A stretch of DNA of 64,000 bases from NCBI GenBank assembly GCA_944472135.2, contig OX235268.1, positions 6,082,589 to 6,146,588 on the forward strand, given 5' to 3'. A model generated the notes under the pieces. The model did not search any database. It was not told the DNA's origin and saw only the letters and a program-made list of their open reading frames with translations. Source of the DNA: Trichobilharzia regenti. Its lineage: Eukaryota > Platyhelminthes > Trematoda > Strigeidida > Schistosomatidae. This document shows, piece after piece, positions 6,537-43,325 of this stretch. The first letter of the stretch is position 1. The number at the start of each line of letters is the position of its first letter. Made by a program: the position numbers and the translations under genes.

Positions 6537-6898
6537 CTGGTTTGTAAGGATGCTCACTAGTGACTTGCTACAGGATGGAGTGAAACGTCGTGACCAGTGA
6601 GGTCCATCCGGTCACGTGTTAGTATGGATGTCCTACCGATGATATTAGTTGGGGTTGTGCAAAATCACAAATTGATAGAAGTTAGAATGCATGGCCTGGC
6701 CATTGGACCGGGTCCCAGTGGCTGAATGCTATACAGGCTAGCTTACCTTGTAACCGGAAGGTCCTGGGTTCGTACCTCGGTGGTGGGTGAGTACTGATGA
6801 TGATTCCTAAACTAGTTGGATGAAACAGCTTTCCAGTACTTCGTGGTTTCTAATGGTTCTCTAACTGTTATCAATCCGTGACAAACTCGTAAAAAATA
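6537..6898 (+). mobile_element. SINE family A with hammerhead-like core
   Basis: The head at 6713-6780 is tRNA-like: 'gggtcccagtggctgaatgc' (A box region), an anticodon-arm-like 'cttgtaaccggaagg' and B box 'gggttcgtacctc', most like tRNA-Thr(UGU). Downstream lie CTGATGA near 6797, a TCC-TAAACTAGTT-GGA hairpin and GAAAC near 6824, the order of a hammerhead core. I do not see a convincing stem I, so catalysis is doubtful. The end 'ctgttatcaatccgtgacaaactcg' matches the other A-type ends. Confidence 0.75.
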
Positions 6899-7182
6899 AG
6901 TGTTAAGTGTTTTGAACGTCTTTATTAACGATGATTATAATGTTAAGAAAAATAACAATGATAATGGGGTTTATGCAGGTGGTGATAACAATAACGAAGG
7001 TAGTATTATGTGTATATGTAGATAATTAAATATTTAAATAAATTAGGTCAAATCTGAAAAGTTACGTAATACTAAAGCTGAAGTGGACAGATAATCAGAG
7101 TTTAAATAAATATCATAGAAGTACGAAAGAAATGGAAAATAATAAAGTGTGGGTGGGAAGTTTTTAATTAGAATTTACCTAG

Positions 7183-7483
7183 ACCAGGGAAGAGAAAAAT
7201 GTAGAACGAACTTCTCTTGTATGTAAACACCGAGACTGTTCTTTTGAATTAATTCCCATAGCTTCGTTTATGTGTGTAAAAGGCGGGTTCGATTTCTGTT
7301 TGAAAGGTTCAGTGGAGTGTGTGATAGACAATTTTGAAGGCACTCCTTCTCTCCACTTGATCTGATGACCGCTATCAATCAAATGAATCAAGATAAAACT
7401 ACTTATAGATTTTACTTGGTCTTTTCCAAACCTTGAAGAAAGATGCTCACTGATGATGTGTTTGTTGAGCTGTTTATTTGTTC

Positions 7484-7555
<72 letters not shown>

Positions 7556-8070
7556 GCCGCAGGTACAACTAAATTTGTAGATACACATAGAAGTGGCAAA
7601 GCCAGGTAGCTTGTCTTTCGGTTGACCATCTACAGATTGGTCGGTTGGAAAGTGACAAAAAACACAATGTGTGGCGGCAGTATAAGTCCGTTTTATTGCT
7701 CTCGATAATCCTAGATTTAGGAGTTTACTAACCATATCCCTATTGAATTGCAGTTTCAAGCACAGTTGTTTCTTTGCAACTATTGTCAGTTTCCCTTTAT
7801 TATACCTGGCGTTCATGTATCTCGTTATAAATCTACTAGATTAACCCATTTGAATCAGTGTATTTGCGATGCATCCTAATTCATTTTCTAGGCAGTCATA
7901 TGTACAGATCCGTTTTACTCTATTCTTAAGGCGTTTGACCAAATTGATTTTGTCTTGGATTGCTAAAAAAGTTAGGAAATATGTATATTGTCCTACAGAT
8001 GTAGGATCTTTAGTGAACCATCCTGTCTCCAGTTCAACTGGACATAAAAGAGGTGTAATCTACCATGTAA
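7183..8070 (-). mobile_element. Penelope-like element (P1), thumb to GIY-YIG domain, split by TA tract
   Basis: On the reverse strand from about 8070: TGWFTKDPTSVGQYTYF (the end of the reverse transcriptase), RLKNRVKRICTYDCLENEL (linker), then from 7816 the frame with LSRAIKRTYTAATHCVFC and MCIYKFSCTCGERYI, the C-x-C and YI(G) start of the GIY-YIG nuclease. A TA dinucleotide tract (7488-7549) has grown at the YIG codons. Downstream the frame resumes as HIISEHLSSRFGK and LIDSGHQIKW and stops near 7183. Catalytic residues after YIG are lost. The duplicate lies at 11575-12425. Confidence 0.8.
7488..7549. repeat. TA dinucleotide microsatellite (62 nt)
   Basis: An uninterrupted TA tract inside a PLE nuclease frame. 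It is translated on the reverse strand as alternating Y and I, continuing the natural RYI(G) residues. The duplicate unit holds only 22 nt at the same point (11880-11901). Confidence 0.97.
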
Positions 8071-8959
8071 TACTTATTATTATTTGATCCACAAATTCAC
8101 TGTCATTGGCTGAATTTTCTTCATATATAAATCCATGTAAATTAGAGCAAAGCCTGAAGAAGATCTAATTGAAAACAACAATATTGTTTGTTTATATGTA
8201 TCCATAATACATGTCTAATATTGATCCAAGAAGAAGATCAGAGATAGGTTTCTAAGTGTGTAGAATATGCAGGAAGATAATTTTGTGCAGTCTTTGTTAA
8301 AAGTTAAAAAGTGACATTCTTTCACGTGAGGACAGACAACGAAATTTAATTGTGAGTATATGGAGTCGCTGAGAAGAACTGTGAATTCGTGCTCAGTACC
8401 TGTACGAATAAAGCATGGTAATAAAGAAGTTAATTGAATCACGTTTATAGATAACGACTTAGATGCAAGTATTATTAAGGCAGACATCGGACACCTTCTA
8501 TGACTGTTATCAGAAACAGGGGCAAGGACTACCTTGACAACGGTTAATGGGAGATAGGTGACAACCCTAGTCAGTAAAACCCTTGAAATCGATTGACTAA
8601 GTCATTATTTGGAACGACTTTCCGTTACTAGGTTCAAAAAGGTTCATTCAAGTAGGTGCTAAGAGATGACCACATCCTAAATTCCATCTCTCAAAGTGGC
8701 AACACTATAGATTTGAGAGAAACTCTAAAGAAAAACCGGAGTACTGGCGAAATTCAAGATAGTGGAGTGATTACCTATGTTAGTATGCAACAGGCTATAC
8801 AGGCTAAAGGGATGCAGAATCCTAAGCCCTTTCGAAATGTGCTAGATAGCCGCCAACGTAATCTCGATAGTTTACGCATGTTATTCCCAACCAGCATTAC
8901 TGCTCAACATGGTCAGAGACAAAGAAAATTTCAGATTTGACCATAAATTCAAATCAGTT
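8071..8959. other. Unassigned part of duplicated unit
   Basis: Two open frames lie here: 8215-8487 reverse (90 codons), possibly decayed PLE reverse transcriptase since it directly precedes one, and 8656-8940 forward (94 codons, hydrophilic, glutamine- and serine-rich). I recognise neither, and both recur in unit 2 at 12568-12840 and 13009-13293. Their survival in both copies reflects the recent duplication, not selection. Confidence 0.4.
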
Positions 8960-9815
8960 ATATCGAGAGAACTATAGAAAACCAACAGGGAGTTTCCCGG
9001 ACAGCCTTTTTCGAACTGACTTATCTCTGAGACGCACCCGCCAGTTTTCGAAACCGGCAGCTTCTGGTTACAAGGCAAATTTGTAGACTATTTAGTCACT
9101 GGGGTCCGTTTTAGTCGTCCACGAATTCCAGGTTTCACCAGTTCGTGAGTATTTGTCCTCACTGCCGAACTGATGAACCTAAGTGTTCACAACTTCTCCA
9201 TAGAACACTAGCTAGTAAGAAGTGATGAAACTGGCTGGTGGTCGCACTGAAATCATGAATTAGTAGAGTTTAGAATTCATGAAATACCGATTGAGTCAGG
9301 TCCCAGTAGCTGAATTGTCTACGAGCTTTCCTTGTAATTAGAAGTTCCTGCGTTCGAGCTCAGTCGAGTGGGTACTGCCAGTGATTCAGAAATTCAGAGA
9401 AAATAGCTGTCTAGTGTTAAAACTTCGGCAACTGACTGCATACAGGACGTCATCTGAACGTCTATTGAGCAGCCGTAACTGTTGAGGCCCATCAAGTCTG
9501 TTAAGATAACAGCCACACACCCGCGATATTAGCTGGGGGTTGAGATACATATATCGTTAATTGGTATTAGTTGGAATTCATAGGTCGGCCATCGGTTCAA
9601 GTCCCAGTGAATCGGTGGTCTATGAGTTTGCCATTTAACAGGATCATCCTGGACCCAACCACGGTAGGTGGGTACTGATGAAGACTCCCAAACTAAGACC
9701 AAAACAACTATCCAGTTTACCGTGGCTTTCTGATGGTTCTTTAACTGATGTCAACTTGTGACCAAACCTACGATCAACTAGATCCCTGCAACCAACACTT
9801 GACGCTAGTTATATG
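8960..9815. mobile_element. Degenerate SINE-A cluster
   Basis: Three old SINE-A pieces: antisense about 8965-9140 ('aaaccggcagcttctggttacaaggc'), sense about 9285-9410 ('gagtcaggtcccagtagctgaa' head, 'tgcgttcgagctc' B box) and sense about 9590-9810 (head, 'tactgatgaagactcccaaactaag' hammerhead-like block with GAAA decayed to caaaa, end 'ccaacacttga'). The first two face each other, like the palindromic copies elsewhere. Confidence 0.6.
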
Positions 9816-10929: not shown

Positions 10930-11290
10930 TGGTTTGTAAGGATGCTCACTAGTGACTTGCTACAGGATGGAGTGAAACGTCGTGACCAGTGAGGTCCATC
11001 CGGTCACGTGTTAGTATGGATGTCCTACCGATGATATTAGTTGGGGTTGTGCAAAATCACAAATTGATAGAAGTTAGAATGCATGGCCTGACCATTGGAC
11101 CGGATCCCAGTGGCTGAATGCTATACAGGCTAGCTTACCTTGTAACCGGAAGGTCCTGGGTTCGTACCTCGGTGGTGGGTGAGTACTGATGATGATTCCT
11201 AAACTAGTTGGATGAAACAGCTTTCCAGTACTTCGTGGTTTCTAATGGTTCTCTAACTGTTATCAATCCGTGACAAACTCGTAAAAAATA
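10930..11290 (+). mobile_element. SINE A, duplicate copy
   Basis: Counterpart of 6537-6898, with the same CTGATGA and GAAAC blocks and a few substitutions ('gggtccc' to 'ggatccc'). Confidence 0.75.
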
Positions 11291-11574
11291 AGTGTTAAGT
11301 GTTTTGAACGTCTTTATCAACGATGATTATAATGTTAAGAAAAATAACAATGATAATGGGGTTTATGCAGGTGGTGATAACAATAACGAAGGTAGTATTA
11401 TGTGTATATGTAGATAATTAAATATTTAAATAAATTAGGTCAAATCTGAAAAGTTACGTAATACTAAAGCTGAAGTGGACAGATAATCAGAGTTTAAATA
11501 AATATCATAGAAGTACGAAAGAAATGGAAAATAATAAAGTGTGGGTGGGAAGTTTTTAATTAGAATTTACCTAG

Positions 11575-12425
11575 ACCAGGGAAGAGAAAAATGTAGAACG
11601 AACTTCTCTTGTATGTAAACACCGAGACTGTTCTTTTGAATTAATTCCCATAGCTTCGTTTATATGTGTAAAAGGCGGGTTCGATTTCTGTTTGAAAGGT
11701 TCAGTGGAGTGTGTGATAGACAATTTTGAAGGCACTCCTTCTCTCCACTTGATCTGATGACCGTTATCAATCAAATGAATCAAGATAAAACTACTTATAG
11801 ATTTTACTTGGTCTTTTCCAAACCTTGAAGAAAGATGCTCACTGATGATGCGTTTGTTGAGCTGTTTATTTGTTCACCCTATATATATATATATATATAT
11901 ACCTTTCGCCGCAGGTACAACTAAATTTGTAGATACACATAGAAGTGGCAAAGCCAGGTAGCTTGTCTTTCGGTTGACCATCTACAGATTGGTCGGTTGG
12001 AAAGTGACAAAAAACACAATGTGTGGCGGCAGTATAAGTCCGTTTTATTGCTCTCGATAATCCTAGATTTAGGAGTTTACTAACCATATCCCTATTGAAT
12101 TGCAGTTTCAAGCACAGTTGTTTCTTTGCAACTATTGTCAGTTTCCCTTTATTATACCTGGCGTTCATGTATCTCGTTATAAATCTACTAGATTAACCCA
12201 TTTGAATCAGTGTATTTGTGATGCATCCTAATTCATTTTTCTAGGCAGTCATATGTACAGATCCGTTTTACTCTATTCTTAATGCGTTTGACCAAATTGA
12301 CTTTGTCTTGGATTGCTAAAAAAGTTAGGAAATATGTATATTGTCCTACAGATGTAGGATCTTTAGTGAACCATCCTGTCTTCAGCTCAACTTGACATAA
12401 AAGAGGTGTAATCTACCATGTAATA
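11575..12425 (-). mobile_element. Penelope-like element (P1), duplicate copy
   Basis: Counterpart of 7183-8070 with the same CIYKFSCTCGERYI start and downstream blocks. Its TA tract is 22 nt, so the reading after RYI is IYIYIYR and then a different frame. Confidence 0.8.
11880..11901. repeat. TA microsatellite, short allele (22 nt)
   Basis: Paralogue of the 62-nt tract at 7488-7549. Confidence 0.95.
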
Positions 12426-13312
12426 CTTATTATTATTTGATCCACAAATTCACTGTCATTGGCTGAATTTTCTTCATATATAAATCCATGTAAATTAGAG
12501 CAAAGCCTGAAGAAGATCTAATTGAAAACAACAATATTGTTTGTTTATATGTATCCATAATACATGTCTAATATTGATCCAAGAAGAAGATCAGAGATAG
12601 GTTTCTAAGTGTGTAGAATATGCAGGAAGATAATTTTGTGCAGTCTTTGTTAAAAGTTAAAAAGTGACATTCTTTCACGTGAGGACAGACAACGAAATTT
12701 AATTGTGAGTATATGGAGTCGCTGAGAAGAACTGTGAATTCGTGCTCAGTACCTGTACGAATAAAGCATGGTAATAAAGAAGTTAATTGAATCACGTTTA
12801 TAGATAACGACTTAGATGCAAGTATTATTAAGGCAGACATCGGACACCTTCTATGACTGTTATCAGAAACAGGGGCAAGGACTACCTTGACAACGGTTAA
12901 TGGGAGATAGGTGACAACCCTAGTCAGTAAAACCCTTGAAATCGATTGACTAAGTCATTATTTGGAACGACTTTCCGTTACTAGGTTCAAAAAGGTTCAT
13001 TCAAGTAGGTGCTAAGAGATGACCACATCCTAAATTCCATCTCTCAAAGTGGCAACACTATAGATTTGAGAGAAACTCTAAAGAAAAACCGGAGTACTGG
13101 CGAAATTCAAGATAGTGGAGTGATTACCTATGTTAGTATGCAACAGGCTATACAGGCTAAAGGGATGCAGAATCCTAAGCCCTTTCGAAATGTGCTAGAT
13201 AGCCGCCAACGTAATCTCGATAGTTTACGCATGTTATTCCCAACCAGCATTACTGCTCAACATGGTCAGAGACAAAGAAAATTTCAGATTTGACCATAAA
13301 TTCAAATCAGTT

Positions 13313-14170
13313 ATATCGAGAGAACTATAGAAAACCAACAGGGAGTTTCCCGGACAGCCTTTTTCGAACTGACTTATCTCTGAGACGCACCCGCCAGTTT
13401 TCGAAACCGGCAGCTTCTGGTTACAAGGCAAATTTGTAGACTATTTAGTCACTGGGGTCCGTTTTAGTCGTCCACGAATTCCAGGTTTCACCAGTTCGTG
13501 AGTATTTTTGCTCATTGCAGAACTGATGAACCTAAGTGTTCACAACTTCTCCATAGAACACTAGCTAGTAAGAAGTGATGAAACTGGCTGGTGGTCGCAC
13601 TAAAATCATGAATTAGTAGAGCTTAGAATTCATGAAATACCGATTGAGTCAGGTCCCAGTAGCTGAATTGTCTACGAGCTTTCTTTGTAATTAGAAGTTC
13701 CTGCGTTCGAGCTCAGTCGAGTGGGTACTGCCAGTGATTCAGAAATTCAGAGAAAATAGCTGTCTAGTGTTAAAACTTCGGCAACTGACTGCATACAGGA
13801 CGTCATCTGAACGTCTATTGAGCAGCCGTAACTGTTGAGGCCCATCAAGTCTGTTAAGATAACAGCCGCACACCCGCGATATTAGCTGGGGATTGAGATA
13901 CATATATCGTTAATTGGTATTAGTTGGAATTCATAGGTTGGCCATCAGTTCGAGTCCCAGTGAATCGGTGGTCTATGAGTTTGCCAATTAACAGGATCAT
14001 CCTGGACCCAACCACGGTAGGTGGGTACTGATGAAGACTCCCAAACTAAGACCAAAACAACTATCCAGTTTACCGTGGCTTTCTGATGGTTCTTTAACTG
14101 ATGTCAACTTGTGACCAAACCTACGATCAACTAGATCCCTGCAACCAACACTTGACGCTAGTTATATGCC
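13313..14170. mobile_element. Degenerate SINE-A cluster, duplicate copy
   Basis: Counterpart of 8960-9815. It holds several of the substitutions between the units, such as those around 13505-13520. Confidence 0.6.
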
Positions 14171-28500: not shown

Positions 28501-28796
28501 AAGAAGCTCGGCTGAAGATTGTTCTGCTATGGAGTAGAGAATTTCAAGCGCAAAAAGATGAAATATGGGTTAACAGTTTAAGGAAGTAGGCTTCATTTTA
28601 GGTTAATGACTGGAGAAATTTTTTTTTGTAGGCGAAGTTAAATCTTTGGTAATATGAATCGACATGACTTCAGATATTTAAATAAATTTGGTTCTTACAT
28701 TATTCTTGAAGTTTCCGTGTAGAATGCGGTAAAGGAATAATTGTTTGGAAATCCTTCATGAACCGTATAATTATTCATAATAATAATCTACTTTAT
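28501..28796. other. No feature recognised
   Basis: Short AT-rich spacer before the CR1 3' end; no frame or repeat matched. Confidence 0.4.
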
Positions 28797-29461
28797 TCAA
28801 AAAAAGAAGACAGTACGTATAATACAGAATGGAATTTTCAGCATTTGTCCTTAATATTGCATCTGATTTACACTTAAAATATAAATAAAATTAGAAATTA
28901 AAACAAAAGTTAATCAGAGGAATTTGTCCACTTTTACGATATAAAGTCAAAAATATTTTAAGCACGAATTGAGATCATTAAATATTAATAAGAATAATAA
29001 CGGTGAGTTTGTTTCAAACAGTATTGTCGATTCAGTTGAGTACCATAGGGTATTGAATCTAATGTTGTGTTGATACAGAATGGTGAGGGGAAATACAAAT
29101 TTAAAAGTTATAACAGAGCCTAAATGATGTTCACACTTATAAAAAAATAAACAAATAAAAACAAAAGAATTGAAAGGATTATAAACATAAGAAGTACAAT
29201 AACAATAAAGGTTAATACTGTTAGGGTGGAGGAAATTGGTTTATTTAGTAGTGCAAAGTAGGTTAGTTAGTTCGTCATCAAATAAAGAACGTGCAGACAA
29301 ATATAGTGTAGTGGAACTTTTATACTTAGACGTACGTGCATAAAGTTTCCTGAAAAGACTTCTTGTTTTACCTGAGGAGATACAAGGTTGGAGCTGCGGG
29401 TACTGTAGTGGGTGCTCACAGTCTGAGGAAATTCCTCTAGCAAATTTGTTGCATGACAACA

Positions 29462-30570
29462 CCAACCATTTCACAAACATATCGTACAATACGATTATCA
29501 ATTGGTTCATCAATAGGCACTGATAAATCTTCAGTAAGCATATAATAGGTGTTGTATAAAAGATGAGGAGGATCTCTTTCGACATCTGTTAAATATCTAG
29601 TTAACAGAGCATTTCGTACTTGTTAGCGTTCGGGTAATTTTCCACGGAATAGAATATTTTGTTCAACTAAATAAACAAGAATATGACGGACCAGCTCTCC
29701 AAGATATATTCCAGATACCATTTTTTCATATAATTGTTTTCCAGGATGAAGACTTTCAGCATCCATACACTTATCAAATTGTGTTCTCCAACAGTTTAAT
29801 TCACCTTTTTGACCGAATGCACCGTATTCTGTATTGATAACAACTTCAGGTTCTTTTACACCAGTCATTAATTCAACTTTTGAAGCATCTTCAATATAGG
29901 CAACTTTTGTACCAGTTCCTGCTATTAATCCTACAGCACATTTTGGATTCTCAAGAGCACATGAAGCCAGAGTACCAATTGTATCGTTTACAACGGCAAC
30001 ACATTTCACGTTTAGGCCCAATTGATCAAGAGCAACTTGAAGTAGTTCAGCAACATTGTGACCTTCTACACCACTTGCACTGAAGCCTTTTGTCCATCTT
30101 AATAAAGTGGCATGAGTGAGACCTTTCTGTACACATGGGAAAGAGAATGTGAATCCAAGTTCAAATTTTATTATGTCTCATTCCATTATTGTCTAGGAAA
30201 TCAGCCAATGTCTCAGAGATATATTTGAAAAGATCTTCCCCTGAGCCTGACATCTTTTCTGACGGAACACAGTAAGTTCTTTCCTGAATTCTTAGTGGTT
30301 TTCCTTTACCTTCAAGTGTTACTGCAAGTACACGATAATTTGTTCCTCCAAGATCTAGTGCCAGATAATTTCCAGTCTCTGTGCCATTCCGTGTTCGTGT
30401 AACATAAGATGGGAACATTTTAATTGATGATTTTTCACTAGTGCTCTTCTGTAACCCTAAACGCATAGCTTCATTCATTCTCTCACAAAGCTCTTCATAG
30501 TCAACCACAGAAAGGTCTAGTGGCTTCATAATTTCAACTACTTTCTCGAAAAGTTGCTCATTTGAGTCAC
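29462..30570 (-). pseudogene. HK: Hexokinase cDNA segment inside CR1, disabled
   Basis: About 366 codons of a roughly 450-residue hexokinase, read without introns. Visible in order: EQLFEKVVEIMKPLDLSVVD, MFPSYVTRTRNGTE, LALDLGGTNYRVL (phosphate 1 region), GFTFSFPC, LLRWTKGFSASGVEGHNV, VVNDTIGTLASCAL (with the catalytic Asp), GLIAGTGTKVAYIE, VINTEYGAFG, ELVRHILVYLVEQ, TRYLTDVERDPPHLLYN, VRYVCEMV. The last ~80 residues with the adenosine-binding GSGKGA motif are absent. One extra A in an A run near 30168 shifts the frame, and a TAA stands at 29621-29623 after KLPER. The segment has no poly(A) tail and no start of its own; upstream the frame is continuous with CR1 residues. The sequence resembles schistosome hexokinase as I know it. 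A functional gene is excluded by these breaks. Confidence 0.93.
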
Positions 30571-31077
30571 TGAGCCTATCAGTGACAATGTCAACGATAT
30601 GGCCCAATGGGTTTCTACGAATTATGACATAGTCTTTTTAAAGCAATCCAGGAAAGAATAAGGATGAACAGTAAAGAAGAATAGGTAAAATACACGAGTT
30701 GACAAACTGTAAAAGGTGTAGTTGAGTTGTGCCTGAGTGCCTTAACTTCTTAATGTAAAAAGTCAGACGAAATATTCTTTTAGAAATCGTTTAGACAAGG
30801 GAAGACCAGGATAGGTCAGAAGAAAGAATTAATCCAAGGTACTTAACTTCAGACTTGGTTTCTATATCAGTATCATCAATTTTGCGAGGGTCATAGGAAC
30901 CAACAGCTTCATTTAACTTTCATTTGCATGGGAAACTGACAGTGGCACATTTGGAAGGATTCACTTTAAGACCATTAGACTCGTGACAGAAATCTGTTCG
31001 TCTTATTACAGTCAGGCTGGGACTTAACAGACATTGAAATAGTTAGATCGTCAGCATACTTGACAAAGTTCATTTCA

Positions 31078-31662
31078 GGATTTCATCATGAGCTGATATT
31101 AGTTAGAGAACTATTGGAAAACCTGGGAGTAATGGACAGCTGTTTCGTCCTAGTTTGGGACTCTTGAGCAGGACGCACCCAGCGGGGTTTGAACGCAGGA
31201 CCTTCTGATTACAAGGAGAGCTAGCTCGTATACCATTAAGCCACTGGGACCCAATCCAACACTTGAATACCAATGAGATGCTCACTGGTGACTGGCCCTA
31301 TTCAGGTAGGTAGCTACCTGGGTTCCAGTGGGAATTCGTGACCAGTAGGGTGCAGCTGGTCGGGTGTGAGGACAAATACTCGCCGAAGACATTGGCTAGC
31401 GGTCGCACTATGTCGTGAATTGGCAGAATTTAGAATTCAAGGACCATTGGATCGGGTCCCAGTGGCCTAATGGTCTACGGGCTCGCCTTATAACCAGAAG
31501 GTCCTGGGTTCGAATCCCGGTGGGTGCGCACTGCCGGAGAGTCCCAAACTAGGACGAAACAGCTGTCCAGTACTCTCTGGCAGGTTTTCCAATGTTTCTC
31601 TAACTAATGTCAGCTCATGATGAAATCCTGAAACCAATCAAATCCCTACAAACCAACACTTG
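31078..31662. mobile_element. Palindromic SINE A, inserted in CR1 with 13-bp target duplication
   Basis: The left part is an antisense SINE A starting 'ggatttcatcatgagctga' and the right part a sense SINE A ending 'tcagctcatgatgaaatcc' plus a 35-base tail ending 'ccaacacttg'. Each holds a tRNA-like head (B box 'gggttcgaatccc' at 31507; antisense near 31185) and the stem-loop 'gtcccaaactaggac' followed by GAAAC (31533; antisense near 31150). The direct repeat AAAGTTCATTTCA at 31065-31077 and 31663-31675 is a target-site duplication, and joining the flanks restores the CR1 frame. Confidence 0.92.
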
Positions 31663-31839
31663 AAAGTTCATTTCATCAGAGTGAGGTAAGTCATGCAAGA
31701 AGAAAGAAAACAGAAAAGGAGAAGGGACACCACCTTGACAGACGCCAGCCTCAGTAGGCAATGAAGTGGACGACTTTCCCTGACTAACATACAGTGTACT
31801 GCTTTCTTTCTTGAGAAATAAGAACTAAGAATTACGGTG

Positions 31840-36365: not shown

Positions 36366-36739
36366 GTTGTGAGGCCAATTTGTTTTTAGATTCCTTTTCA
36401 TTTCTCATCCATTGATTACATTGGACTGAAATATCTGCAATGTGTTGACGTGTCAGCTCGTATTACTGAAGAAGTCCAACGAAGATTTACAATTTACTTG
36501 GATTAGCTCTCATCGTCATGTGAATAATGGTTTTGCTTGGTTTTGAGTGCACATTTCCAGTCTCGGGGTACAGAATAGCACTGCCTACAGCGGATTGCAG
36601 GTACATTCAACTGACCAGTCCAAATAGGCTAAAATATGCATAATGGCGGTGGCCTGTTTAAATCTTGGGCTACCGAAATTTCCATCCTACATATTGCATA
36701 TATTTCCTCGGATTTATTTTACTTTAATTATTCAGTTAT
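36366..36739. other. Region upstream of CR1 endonuclease, unassigned
   Basis: No open frame with a recognisable domain; it may include 5' sequence of the CR1 copy that follows. Confidence 0.35.
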
Positions 36740-39700
36740 GTGTCCAAATCGCATTACTTACTCTCGCGATTATTTAAAATGTTTCAACCTGATTATTTAC
36801 GTGTATATAATAACCTTAAGAAGAAGCATCATGGTGAGTGGCAGAGATCGTTAAAGTGTACTCCAATGCATCAGATGACTGTTCCTGTGATTATGAGCAC
36901 AAATTGCAGGTCATTATCGAACAAGATTAACTACTTGCATTCTCTATTATACTCAAATGTTTATTGTAATACTGGTGTAATCACTCTTCAAGAAACTTGG
37001 CTCCATGATTCATATGACGATAATTTAGTCTCCTTAAGTGGGTTCACAATCTACAGACAAGACCGATGCAGCTCAAAGAAGAAGAGAGGTGGTGGTGTTG
37101 CCACTTTTATTAATTCTCAGTGGTCTACTGCCAACAACGTCTGCTTCAAATTCTCAAATGACAATATTGACTGTATAACTGTAAAATGTCGACCTAAACA
37201 CTTACCTAAGTATAGCTTCATTTTTGTCACAAATATCTATATCACACCTTGTTGCAGTCCCTCAGAACTATCTATCTTCGCTGATGAATTCACTATTTTT
37301 GCTGCTGCTTCGTTTGGTAACTCCTTATCTATAGTGACTGGCGACTTCAACTCCAGCGACTGCAGTTTTATTACATTGCTGGGCCATGAAAATGTTGTTA
37401 ATTTCCCAACTCGACAAAATACTTCACTTGATTTAGTATTTATAAATGATTCTGGAATATACGAAGCTCGTAAAAGAGCCCGCTCTTCAATTCTGATCAT
37501 TGTATTGTACGAGTCTTACCCAAAATTTACGGAAAGTTACACAGTAAAGCCTCTCAAACTTGTCTAAGAAAGTTGTTCACAGATGCTACTCAAATGAGAA
37601 CGTACATCATCTTAGAAACATGCTCAGTGACACAAGATGGGATTTGTTTAATGATTCACTTAATGACAATATCTCTAATATTACATCCTATCTGAAATTC
37701 TGTTTTGAAATCTGTTGTCCAAAAGAAACACTATTCGTCAAATTTGACCGTTTCTCCTCGCCTCAACTTAAAAAGCTTCGTAGAGAGAAGGAAAAACTGT
37801 ATAAGATGAAAGATAAAAGTGGTGTAAAAAGAACTAACTTCTTAATTAAGTCTGAAATGCAGAGGTTGAATGTAATATATAACCAGAAATTCATATCCTG
37901 CAAAAATCCTTCTAATATGTGGAAACTATTTAAGGAAATCACTGGTGGTAAGCAGATAAACAATATTCCATATTCTTTTGATGTATGTACTCTTAACAAA
38001 TCTTTTATTTACTCTCCCTCAAATGCCATGCTTCCCAGCATCACTTGTGTTAATAATAGCCCCTTTCCAGGTTTTAACACAAATGATGTTCAAAAGTGCC
38101 TCAAGTCTCTAAACCCTTCCCAGAGCTTAGGTCCCGATTATGTACCTAGTATTATTTTTAAAAAATGTTCTGATATTCTGTGTCACCCTCTTACTGATCT
38201 ATTTAACAAATCTTTTTCCGATAATATTGTGCCTGCCGTTTGGAAGGACATTAAAGTTGTACCCATACCTAAATCATCCACTGGAGCATGTGTCAAATTT
38301 AGACCCATTGCTATTACCTCTCCTTTTTTGAAAACTATGGAGAAATTACTTTTACTTAGTCTTGTACCTTCGCTTAAATCCTTTAATGACCCTAAACAAT
38401 TTGCCTATAAGCACAGTAGAAGCACTTTAGATGCAGCTGCCGTCTTATATCATAACATTGCTTCCAGTCTAGACAAGGGGGCTAAATTTGTTCGTTGTGC
38501 CTTCCTAGACTATACATCTGCTTTCGACTCGGTCCCTAGGGACATCTTATTAAATAAACTTGCTGCTAGTCAAACAGAATGTTGGGCTGTTAACTGGTTA
38601 CATTCCTATTTCTCAGATAGAAAGCAGTACACCGTATATAAAGGGAAGTCTTCCACTTCATTGCCTACTGAAGCTGGTGTCCCTCAAGGCGCTGTTCTTT
38701 CTCCTTTTCTTTTTTCTTTCTTCTTGCATGACTTGCCTCACTCTGATGAAATAAACTTTGTGAAGTACGCTGATGATTTAACGGTTTCAATGGCTGTTAA
38801 CTCCCAGCTAGATTGTACTAAAATAAATAGCTTTCTATCGGAAGTCAGCAAATGGTCTGAGTCTAACGGTCTTAAACTGAATCCTTCTAAGTGTCAAACT
38901 GTTGATTTCAGCTTAAGATGTAAACGACAGTTAAAAGAAGTCATCGATTCTCATGACACTTGTAAAATTGACGACAATGATATAGGAATCAAATCAGAAA
39001 TTAAGTATCTTGGACTCATTCTCTCTTCTGATCTCTCCTGGTCTTCCCATGTCTTAGCAATCTCCAGTAAAATATTCCCCTGACATTTTACATTAAGAAG
39101 TTAAGACACTCGGGTATAACTCAACCCCTCCTCTTACAGTTCATAAACTCTTGCATCCTACCTATTCTTCTTTATTGCTCACCCTTATTCTTTCCTGGTT
39201 TGCTTAAAAAAGACTATGTCACAATTCGTAGAATACTGAAGACTGTCAGTAGGGTGAGTGGTGTCCCAGTGGACCACATAGTTAACGTCGTTGTCGATAG
39301 GCATTTGACTTCGTGCAATAAATTTGCTAAAGGGAGCATCCGCTTTACCCTCAGCTTTCACCTTGCATCTCCTCAGGTAGAACAAGGAGTAACTTCAGAA
39401 AACTGTATGCTCGCACGTCTAAGTATAAGAATTCTATGATACCATACTTGGCACGTATTTTATGTGATGAAAATAGTGTCAGGCAAGAATTAACTAACTT
39501 TTTTCATCTAGTAAATAAACAATTTCCTCCATCCATCCTTATATACCTTCAAGTTTTACTTTTATTACTTCTATTATATTTATGGTCCTGTTAATTCTCT
39601 GTTTTACTCTCATAATTGCAAACACCAACTTATCTCCATGACGGCTGTAATCTTTGTTTTTCCCCTCTCCATATCATGTAAAGAAAAATTATATTCAATA

Positions 39701-39990
39701 TTTTTAAACATGTTAGGATTTCTATACCACATTGACAATACTGTGTGAAACAAGCCAACGGCAATTTTCACTTGTATTATTATTATTACCCTAGCTGTTA
39801 TCATTATTATTATTTCCATTTTATATGCTGCATGTTTTTGACACTACCTCTATTGTAAATGTGGAAAATTTTTTGTGTGATTAATTTTATTTATAATTTG
39901 AGGAAATTAGATGCAATATTGTGATTAATGCTGAAAATTCCATTCTGTATCACAAGTACTGTTTTTGGAATAAAGTAAATTATGATTATT
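36740..39990 (+). mobile_element. CR1-like (SR1-type) non-LTR retrotransposon, best copy
   Basis: The apurinic-type endonuclease (36740-37480) shows TNCRSLSNKI, LQETW, GGGVATF and VTGDFN. Its SDH motif (NSDHCIV) follows in another frame after a shift near 37480. The reverse transcriptase (37560-39083, 507 codons) has LGPDYVPS, FRPIAITSPFLK, AFLDYTSAFDSVPRD (motif A), GVPQGAVLSPFLFSFFL (motif B), FVKYADDLTVS (intact catalytic YADD) and IKYLGLILSSDLSWS. A one-base deletion near 39078 breaks it; the C-terminus continues in another frame (LTFYIKKLRHSGITQPLLL, VVDRHLTSCNKFAKG). The 3' end 'gaataaagtaaattatgatt' lies near 39990. At least three frameshifts make it non-autonomous. Confidence 0.92.
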
Positions 39991-39999
39991 ACTATGGAT

Positions 40000-42490
40000 T
40001 CCACCGAAAGTCACATTATTATTATTATTGTTCTCTTGGGTTCCTAGTGGAACATAGGATTTCAGCTTCACGTCTTCATTTGCTTCTGTGTTCCTTCTGC
40101 TGTACTTTTCACCTGCATCCATGGCAGTTCGTCCAGACTCTTTCAACTCCTCTTCACACGATCTCCTCCATGTCACCCTAAGACGTCCCACGTGCCGCTT
40201 CCTATTCAAGTTCCACTCGAGGGCTTGACGCACGATGTCCCCCAGCGGTCTCCCCAGCGAATGACCTATCCATCTCCACTTTCTTCTGCATATTTGTTGG
40301 CTGGCGATTGGTTAATGCTTTGTTTGTCCGTAGTTCTTTCTTGGTGATTCCTTCCGGCCATCTAATCTTCAGTATAGATCCTGCGAAGACAGTTGTTGAC
40401 CAAGGTCTGCAAGTGGCTGTTGGAAATATTCTTTGTGCTCCCCCCGCCAAGTTTCTGATCCGTATAGAAGAACTCACTGACTGACTTGACGTTTTTTGTA
40501 TTGAAAATCCGACCGAATTTTGTTGTTGATGCCGGCTGAGTGACGAAGATTTCCAGATTGATTTCAGGTTGATGAATGTGTTTCTCGCCGATTTGACATC
40601 CTCGTCCGTTTTGACTGCCTGTAGTTGAGACAATGCTTCCTAGATAAGTGGTGAATGAAGTAACCTCTTTCAAATCCCTCCCGTTGATGGTGATTGGCGT
40701 TGGATGTTGTTGCTGTTGTTGGTTGGTTATTTTCATAACCTCCGTCCTGTCTATGTTTACCTGGAGTCCTGTCTTTGCTGCTTCTTCGACCAGTTTGTCG
40801 ATTTTCGCTTGTAAGTCTTCGATTGTGTGTGACATCAAACATAAGTCATCAACGAAATCCAGGTCTTCTAGGTTCTTCACGTCGGTCCAGGATATCCCTG
40901 TCTTCTCGTTTCCCACTCACTGTCTGACGCATAATCCAGTCCACCACAATTAGGAATATCATTGGTGATAGTAAGCACCCTTGTCTGACTCCTGTGTTTA
41001 CTCCAAACGCCTCTCTGAGTTTTCCTTTGTGTATCACTTGACATGTGCTATTGTCGTACAGCTGTTGAATAAGGTTGATGAATATTTGGGGTGCGCCGTA
41101 GTACTCGATTAGTTTCCCAAATTACTTCACGGTCAACGCTGTCTGTCGAAGGCCTTCTCAAAGTCTATAAAGTTGAGGTAGAGGGAGGTTTGATTGCCAT
41201 TCCATGCTTTGTTCTGTGATGATGCGTAGGGTTGTAATTTGGTCAGTACATGATTTGCCTTTCCTGAATACAGCTTGTTCTGGTCGGAGTTCTGTCTCCA
41301 GTGCGGCTTTTAATCTCTCCAGTATGATGCGACTCAGGATTTTACTTGGTGTCGACAGGAGCATGATTCCTCGCCAGTTCTTGCAGAGTCCTAAGTCGCC
41401 CTTCTTTGTTAGTTTCACGAGGTAACCTTTCCTCCAGTCAGTAGGCACCTTTCCCTCCTTCCAGACCTTTTGCAATAATGGAGTCAGCATATCTGCTGTA
41501 GTCTCTGGGTCCGCTTTTAGTGCTTCAGGAGGTATTCCATCTGGTCCAGCTGCTTTTCCAGCGTTCAGAAGCTTGATTGCATTCAAGACTTCAGCTCTCG
41601 TTGGAGGATTGGTGTCAACTTGCAGTTGTGTGCGCGCTGTTGTTGGTATTTCTGGACGGGTTGCAAGTAATGGTCGGTTCAAGAATCCTTTGAAGTGATC
41701 CGCCCATTGTTTAATCTGCTTTTCTTCCTTGGTAATGGGCTTCCCTTGGCTGTCTTTTATAGGTTTCGCTTGTGTTGGTCTCTTCCCGGATAGAGATTTG
41801 GTTATCTGATATAGTGTCCTCAGGTCCCTTTTGCCTGTTGCCTTCTCAGCTTCAGTGGCCAGATTGTCGTAGAATTGTCTTTTGTCCTTCCTAGCACTTT
41901 TCTTCACTTCTTTGTCCAATGCTGTGTAGGTTGAGCTCAGCGTCTCCTTCTCCTGTCTGTCCTTGCATTGAATCATTTCTCTTCCACCATTCTACTCTCT
42001 TCCATTAATTTCCAAGTGTCCGTTTAGAGCCATTCCTTGTCTTGTCTCTTCTTTCTTCCTAGAACCGTTGAACACTTTTCGTTAAAAATCACCTATAGAG
42101 ACTTCCAATGTTCTTCCACGCATGATTCTTCAGTGATGTCACGTAGTGTTTCCTGTTTTGCTCTAACAGTTGCAGTGAAAGTGTCCTTCAGTAATTGAGT
42201 GTAGAACTTGCATTGTGGCCTATTCCCAGCTATCCTCGAGGCTTTTAGTTTCACCTTGAAAGTCCCTTCTACTAGATAGTGATATGAACCCACATCTGCT
42301 CCTCTCCTTGACCTTGTGTCCAGTAGGCTTCGTCTCCACTTTCTTGAAATTGAGATGATGTCTATTTGATTCTTGGTGTTTCCATCTGTTGAAATCCATG
42401 TCGTCTTGTGTATATCCTTGTGTTTGAAAATGCTGCCACCAATCACCAAGTCGTCAACATCAACCATCAACTCAAATAACTTCAATTTAA
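40000..42490 (-). mobile_element. RTE-like (SR2-type) retrotransposon, antisense
   Basis: Endonuclease C-terminus at 42485-42093 (VDDLVIGGSIFKHKDIHKTTW, NQIDIISISRKWRRSLLD, RRGADVGSYHY, where the usual SDHH reads SYHY). Linker and reverse transcriptase N-part at 41976-41158 (GKAAGPDGIPPEAL, LVKLTKKGDLGLCKNWRGI, EQAVFRKGKSCTDQI). After a frameshift: AFDSVDREVIW, TGVRQGCLLSPMIFLIVVDW (41010-40940), then NLEDLDFVDDLCLMSH (near 40865), where FADD is FVDD. The C-terminus runs to about 40050 (GRLRVTWRRSCEEELKESGR). The 3' end is an ATAATAATAATAAT tail, seen in reverse as (ATT)n at 40014-40031. Several shifts make it inactive. Confidence 0.88.
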
Positions 42491-42619: not shown

Positions 42620-43325
42620 GCGAATACGTGACCAGTGGGTTCCAGTGACTATGTCAAGATGAGGTGGGTTCTCATCGAGTTGACTAATGACGGCAGGACT
42701 ATATCAAGAGTTGAAAAAATTATTATTCACGCGTCATCTAATGCGAACCCAAGTAGCTGAATGGTTAATCATCTCCGCATCGTAAACTGAATGTAGTACG
42801 TTTTATCCATGTCATGGTTGTGGGTATGTAATGCCGAAGAGTCTCAGAATAGGATGAAACATCTCTCAATACCCATTAGTGATTCTCAGTGATTTCAGCT
42901 CATAGTAAAGATACAAAAACTGTAATTGGTTTGTACAAACCAACACTTGAATACCAATGAGTTGCTTACTAGCGAGTGGCCCTGTTCAGGTAGGTAGTTA
43001 CCTGGGGTTCCAGTGGGAAGTCGTGACGAGTAGGGTGCAGCAGGTCGGGTGTGAGGATAAATACTCTCCGAAGACATTGGCTAGCGGTCGCACTATGTCG
43101 TGAATTGGCAGAATTTAGAATTCAAGGACCATTGGATCGGGTCCCAGTGGCCTAATGGTCTACGAGCTCGCCGGCCTTATAACCAGAAGGTCCTGGGTTC
43201 GAATCCCGGTGGGTGCGCACTGCCGGAGATTCCCAAACTAGGAAGAAACAGCTGTCTAGTACTCTCTGGCAGGTTTTCCAATGTTTCTCAAACTAATGTC
43301 AGCTCATGATGAAATCCTGAAAAGT
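42620..43325 (+). mobile_element. SINE A units, degenerate then well preserved
   Basis: 42735-42905 is an old copy ('gaacccaagtagctgaatgg', 'gaagagtctcagaataggatgaaaca'). 42930-43320 is a nearly complete sense unit with the long 5' body ('ccaacacttgaataccaatgag', 'ggtaggtagttacctgggg'), tRNA-like head near 43135, B box at 43196, 'gattcccaaactaggaagaaacagc' (GAAAC intact) and end at 43316. Confidence 0.8.

Follow-up and report, generated by a model that had tools for sequence, protein, structure and literature searches.

How did part of a hexokinase mRNA come to lie inside a CR1-like retrotransposon? The question is raised by a locus in a 64,000-nucleotide stretch of Trichobilharzia regenti DNA (contig OX235268.1, positions 6,082,589 to 6,146,588), called the window below; feature coordinates refer to the window. 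The initial annotation had described a hexokinase cDNA segment embedded in a CR1 reading frame and had set it apart from an ordinary retrogene. Two origins had been offered: two template switches during reverse transcription, from CR1 RNA to hexokinase mRNA and back, or the insertion of a cDNA fragment into CR1 RNA or DNA. The name CR1 was taken over from that annotation and is a presumed assignment here.

The hexokinase cDNA fragment occupied positions 29463–30567 on the minus strand and ran from base 8 of the parental coding sequence to the first base of codon 371. Pfam Hexokinase_1 and Hexokinase_2 were found in two open frames of the insert, with E values of 5e-33, 4e-29, and 2e-34. The best PDB match of the insert was 1bdg (chain residues 4–370, 309 of 366 residues identical), which we take to be the hexokinase of Schistosoma mansoni. 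The genome was searched over 954 Mb in 548 contigs. The search returned seven rows, of which one was the window and the other six covered the seven exons of a parent hexokinase gene of the same genome, which lay on another contig (C4:81061555-81069353). The Pfam domains, the 1bdg match, and the alignment to this parent confirmed the presence of a hexokinase cDNA segment inside CR1. The initial annotation had also proposed a search for other CR1 copies with the same hexokinase insert; no second insert was found in the genome search, which gave one copy only.

The insert consisted of the seven parental exons, and the six parental introns (35, 664, 1184, 1889, 885, and 2038 bp, all GT..AG) were exactly missing. 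Against the spliced parent exons, 1074 of 1104 aligned bases matched, with 30 mismatches and one 1-nt insertion (97.3% identity). Since the insert was intron-free, its source was RNA that had been spliced, and the insert originated from hexokinase mRNA. The first 7 nt of the coding sequence, including the ATG, were missing from the insert, and its other end fell inside exon 7, so that the C-terminus, the UTRs, and a tail were absent. The initial annotation had described the hexokinase part in these terms, and the alignment to the spliced parent bore this out. The parental gene has one very short intron of 35 bp (L008 745–779), which has GT..AG ends and is missing in the cDNA-derived copy.

Three other readings of the composite were rejected on its structure. 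Trans-splicing or exon capture at the RNA level was excluded because both hexokinase ends lay inside exons (exon 1 and exon 7) and not at splice sites. Gene duplication at the DNA level was excluded because the introns were exactly absent. The insertion of CR1 into a hexokinase retrogene was excluded because the hexokinase was continuous and the CR1 was split.

The insert carried a frameshift, caused by the 1-nt insertion near 30170, and a stop at 29623–29625. The substitution pattern was neutral, because 9 of the 30 substitutions were synonymous, compared with 22% expected at random. At sites invariant in five PDB-chain hexokinase domains, the insert differed at 9 of 106, the stop counted; some of these nine differences also occurred in the parent, so that 9/106 alone is no measure of decay. 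No function is indicated by the sequence of the hexokinase insert. Viral contigs were scanned with one 184-aa hexokinase piece, and no relative was confirmed. Word searches of the open literature named no such hexokinase/CR1 insertion among the matches listed.

The host was a CR1-like element on the minus strand, from about 31824 to 28777, interrupted by two foreign pieces. The left (5′) arm was 5′-truncated and consisted of an outer piece at 31663–31824 (86% to 38603–38759) and an inner piece at 30574–31077, which ended in GATAGGC. The right (3′) arm, at 28777–29461, held the ORF2 C-terminus, the 3′ UTR, and the ATT-rich 3′ end. All these pieces lay on the minus strand. The left and right arms were co-linear and formed one CR1-like element, and the expectation that the two flanks would join almost without loss was upheld. 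The host reading frame is dead: compared with a sister-subfamily copy, the joined arms showed several length changes and six single-base changes to a stop. Not all of these were private to this copy, since a 17-bp gap of the arms also occurred in about half of the 20 copies from the element's own subfamily. The left arm lacked stretches of 6 and 34 columns that were present in 18 of the 20 copies.

The 3′ ends of several CR1-like copies were ATT-rich. A longer relative of the element, at about 36728–39990 of the window, belonged to a young sister subfamily and had endonuclease and reverse transcriptase frames (two open frames with Pfam Exo_endo_phos and RVT_1). This copy was about 1–4% from the copies in L016, L022, and L027, and a 16-base gap relative to L016 broke its last frame. 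The sister-subfamily members c1, L016, L027, and L022 were about 1–4% apart and 22–29% from the element. L009 was excluded from the young sister subfamily, as it was about 6% (left) and 23–25% (right) from the members.

The other foreign piece was a separate insertion in the same CR1 copy. This repeat, at 31078–31662, was about 585 bp long and had inverted ends. The inverted ends were about 187 bp long, with 31447–31633 matching 31073–31259. Each inverted end contained a type I hammerhead ribozyme (Rfam RF00163), and the two faced opposite ways, at 31528–31573 (+) and 31129–31174 (−), with bit scores of 40.9 and 34.1. A 13-bp duplication, TGAAATGAACTTT, flanked the repeat at 31663–31675 and 31065–31077. 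Many partial relatives of the hammerhead repeat were found in the window, the best at 94% (42936–43322). Two further repeat features of the window were recorded. Open frames at 40849–41991 on the minus strand resembled part of a non-LTR reverse transcriptase of a different family, with a weak match to the CR1-like protein. Repeat matches between about 6670–9802 and 11062–14155, at offsets of 4392 and 4353 bp, suggest a direct duplication of about 4.4 kb.

The junctions were compared with copies of the element's own subfamily. The left arm had a further 39 long matches, 80–90% identical, and 20 of them were fetched (the 18 best-scoring and two shorter ones); 19 of the 20 covered the insertion site, and L048 did not. 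The common order at the site in these copies was GATAGGC-ACT-TGATGTCATGCAAC. In the element, the order was GATAGGC, TCAGTG, hexokinase from ACTCAAATG to ATGGTTG, G, and TGTTGTCATGCAAC. The left CR1 arm extended to 30574, the hexokinase from 30567 to 29463, and the right CR1 arm from 29461, and the earlier estimates of about 30570 and 29455 were close to these borders. Both junctions were ambiguous by 1–3 nt. Comparison with the 19 copies that span the site showed a loss of no more than about 3 bp of CR1, a figure ambiguous by 3 nt because ACT was common to CR1 and hexokinase. With the sister-subfamily copy c1 as reference, the two arms joined without loss. An overlap of TCA or ACTCA at both junctions, read from the sister-subfamily reference, was dropped, as the own-subfamily copies turned the left overlap into a 6-nt filler.

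This filler, TCAGTG, lay at 30568–30573 on the minus strand at the left junction, as delimited by the own-subfamily copies. Together with the next 2 nt, it was the reverse complement of GTCACTGA at 30579–30586 in the adjacent CR1 arm. Among randomly drawn 6-mers, 1.7% matched one of the two flanks within 20 nt. Filler copied from adjoining sequence is known as templated filler of end joining, and the match is no more than suggestive of a left filler templated from the adjacent CR1 arm in inverted orientation. At the right junction, a single base at 29462 (minus strand) fitted neither the parent nor the CR1 copies; it could be filler or a substituted CR1 base, which gives a filler of 0–1 nt. 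No target-site duplication of at least 5 bp was found around the hexokinase insert in the comparison with the 20 copies, 19 of them covering the site. No poly(A) tract or cryptic polyadenylation signal was found at the 3′ end of the insert, where exon 7 sequence was followed directly by CR1. In lacking both a tail and a target-site duplication, the insert was indeed no ordinary retrogene.

The relative age of the arms and the insert was investigated by private differences, which were scored only at columns with at least 80% agreement among the other copies. The left arm was scored to 30574 against the 20 copies, and the right arm against 12 of those 20, for which the 3′ neighbourhood was fetched. 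Among the right-arm copies, L056 and L060 were unlike the element at the 3′ end and L054 was short; all were kept in the counts. Private divergence was 31/484 (6.4%) for the left arm and 42/597 (7.0%) for the right arm, with p 0.72 for the difference. For the arms combined it was 73/1081, compared with 30/1104 between insert and parent, both lineages counted (Fisher's exact p = 7.3e-6). The divergence of the arms was 2.5 times that of insert plus parent. Each arm singly also exceeded the insert (left, p 9e-4; right, p 4e-5). When the right arm was limited to its first 154 bases, its count of 8/139 did not significantly exceed that of the insert (p 0.06), and nine copies had terminal branches longer than that of the element there.

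The element was not extreme within its subfamily. In the left-arm tree, its terminal branch of 0.077 was the third longest of 21, the branches of the 20 copies ranging from 0.007 to 0.089. L044 and L045 had slightly more private differences in the left arm, and L045 and L047 had slightly longer terminal branches. In the right arm, L056 and L060 had more private differences than the element and L059 had an equal number. The subfamily appears to be a mix of young and old copies, with the element among the old ones. No near-identical CR1 source copy for the arms was found among 40 scored of 4175 candidates; the best of them reached 90%, and that over only part of the arm. Some of the private CR1 divergence may be that of a sublineage outside the sample of 20 left and 12 right copies drawn from these 40. 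Because the private divergence of both arms exceeded the whole hexokinase–parent divergence, we infer that the hexokinase fragment arrived in a CR1 copy that was by then old.

The most probable origin is that hexokinase cDNA was patched into a double-strand break of an old, decaying genomic CR1 copy. A spliced hexokinase mRNA was reverse transcribed, as the intron-free insert shows, probably by the reverse transcriptase of a LINE. The cDNA fragment, or the RNA itself as template, would then have been joined in the germ line into a break in a pre-existing, mutating CR1 copy. End joining would have removed no more than about 3 bp of CR1 and introduced short filler, and the insert would afterwards have decayed neutrally as a pseudogene. 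The break itself is deduced from the ages and the junctions. The alternative of the initial annotation, a cDNA fragment entering CR1 RNA or DNA, is supported in its DNA form; capture inside LINE RNA is not.

A wider proposal was also considered, in which a CR1-type reverse transcriptase copied the unrelated mRNA in place at the break, as part of a regular LINE-driven germ-line repair route with many patches of seven-exon scale undiscovered. CR1-type reverse transcriptase is generally regarded as dependent on its own RNA 3′ end. This proposal is doubtful.

The chimera could instead have arisen as one piece during target-primed reverse transcription, with a switch from CR1 RNA to hexokinase mRNA and a second switch back to the same place in the CR1 RNA. 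Excerpts of PMC4476161 document LINE template switching. The insert ended 7 nt from the parental CDS start, a point that may be close to the mRNA 5′ end, and a reverse transcriptase might change templates there; the mRNA may start close upstream of this end of the insert. Two switches require equal ages, however, and the CR1 arms and the insert differed in age by the counts given above. If a dead CR1 had been transcribed and had served as the RNA, its source copy should exist and closely resemble the arms, and a copy with the private changes of the arms was absent among the scored candidates. The age gap and this absence therefore argue against template switching, the reading first favoured for the locus. 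It would also be unexplained why the second switch came back to within some 3 bp of where the first had left. A double switch is unlikely.

Endonuclease-dependent LINE retroposition of a 3′-truncated hexokinase mRNA into the CR1 copy would have produced a tailless retropseudogene. Mammals have tailless 3′-truncated retrocopies, mRNA-derived ones included, but the cases in the excerpts of PMC5322556 and PMC2912911 have flanking target-site duplications. At the hexokinase insert none was seen, and up to 3 bp were lost instead. An endonuclease-primed LINE insertion of the hexokinase fragment is unlikely in general because there was neither a target-site duplication nor a tail, and its tailless form is quite improbable. 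Two independent retropositions, in which a hexokinase/CR1-3′-end chimera landed beside an older truncated CR1, follow a scheme proposed for tripartite chimeras generally (excerpts of PMC4476161). The arms met at one CR1 site to within some 3 bp, belonged to a single subfamily, and had equal private divergence, so that this very improbable reading is close to refuted. An assembly or library artefact, from cDNA contamination or a chimeric read, is hardly credible: the basis is one assembly and no reads, but the insert sits inside a 58.5-Mb contig and differs from its parent at 30 of 1104 bases in a neutral pattern, with a stop and a frameshift.

The probable patching of hexokinase cDNA into an old CR1 copy bears on other loci of this kind. 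Where a LINE seems to have captured a host gene, the relative ages of its arms and the insert provide a test, and at this locus that test reversed the attractive reading. The locus is also a clean case, from a fluke, of an old repeat patched with a long spliced transcript. Should such patches prove common, a source of gene fragments in fluke-like genomes has been overlooked.

Among known systems, the locus was closest to human class 2 templated sequence insertions (TSI, TSIP). According to excerpts of PMC5110952, these derive from transcripts, lack both a target-site duplication and poly(A), and show a microdeletion and added nucleotides at their junctions; they are likened there to endonuclease-independent LINE events. 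As in that description, the hexokinase insert was templated from a distant locus (contig C4) through spliced RNA, with six introns absent. It had neither a target-site duplication of at least 5 bp nor poly(A) or a cryptic polyadenylation signal, and it bore end-joining marks (at most 3 bp lost, filler of 6 nt and 0–1 nt). Unlike the human insertions described there, it lay in a fluke genome inside a LINE copy, was about 1.1 kb long with seven exons, and came from an old event whose break is deduced.

LINE-mediated processed pseudogenes (class 1 insertions and retrocopies) share with the insert an intron-free mRNA copy and neutral decay; the insert differs from them in having no target-site duplication, no tail, and a truncated 3′ end. 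Tailless retropseudogenes, as excerpted, are likewise 3′-truncated with no tail, and they differ in their flanking target-site duplications. In LINE template-switch chimeras (U6/L1 and similar, and MINE of Magnaporthe), LINE and foreign RNA sequence adjoin as they do here, and the excerpts of PMC4476161 ascribe tripartite chimeras to double switching or two separate insertions. The parts of the present locus, by contrast, are not of one age, and the LINE copy appears to predate the insert. The hexokinase insert belongs to a type of insertion already known; it is a well-resolved case, from a group in which such an insertion was unexpected.
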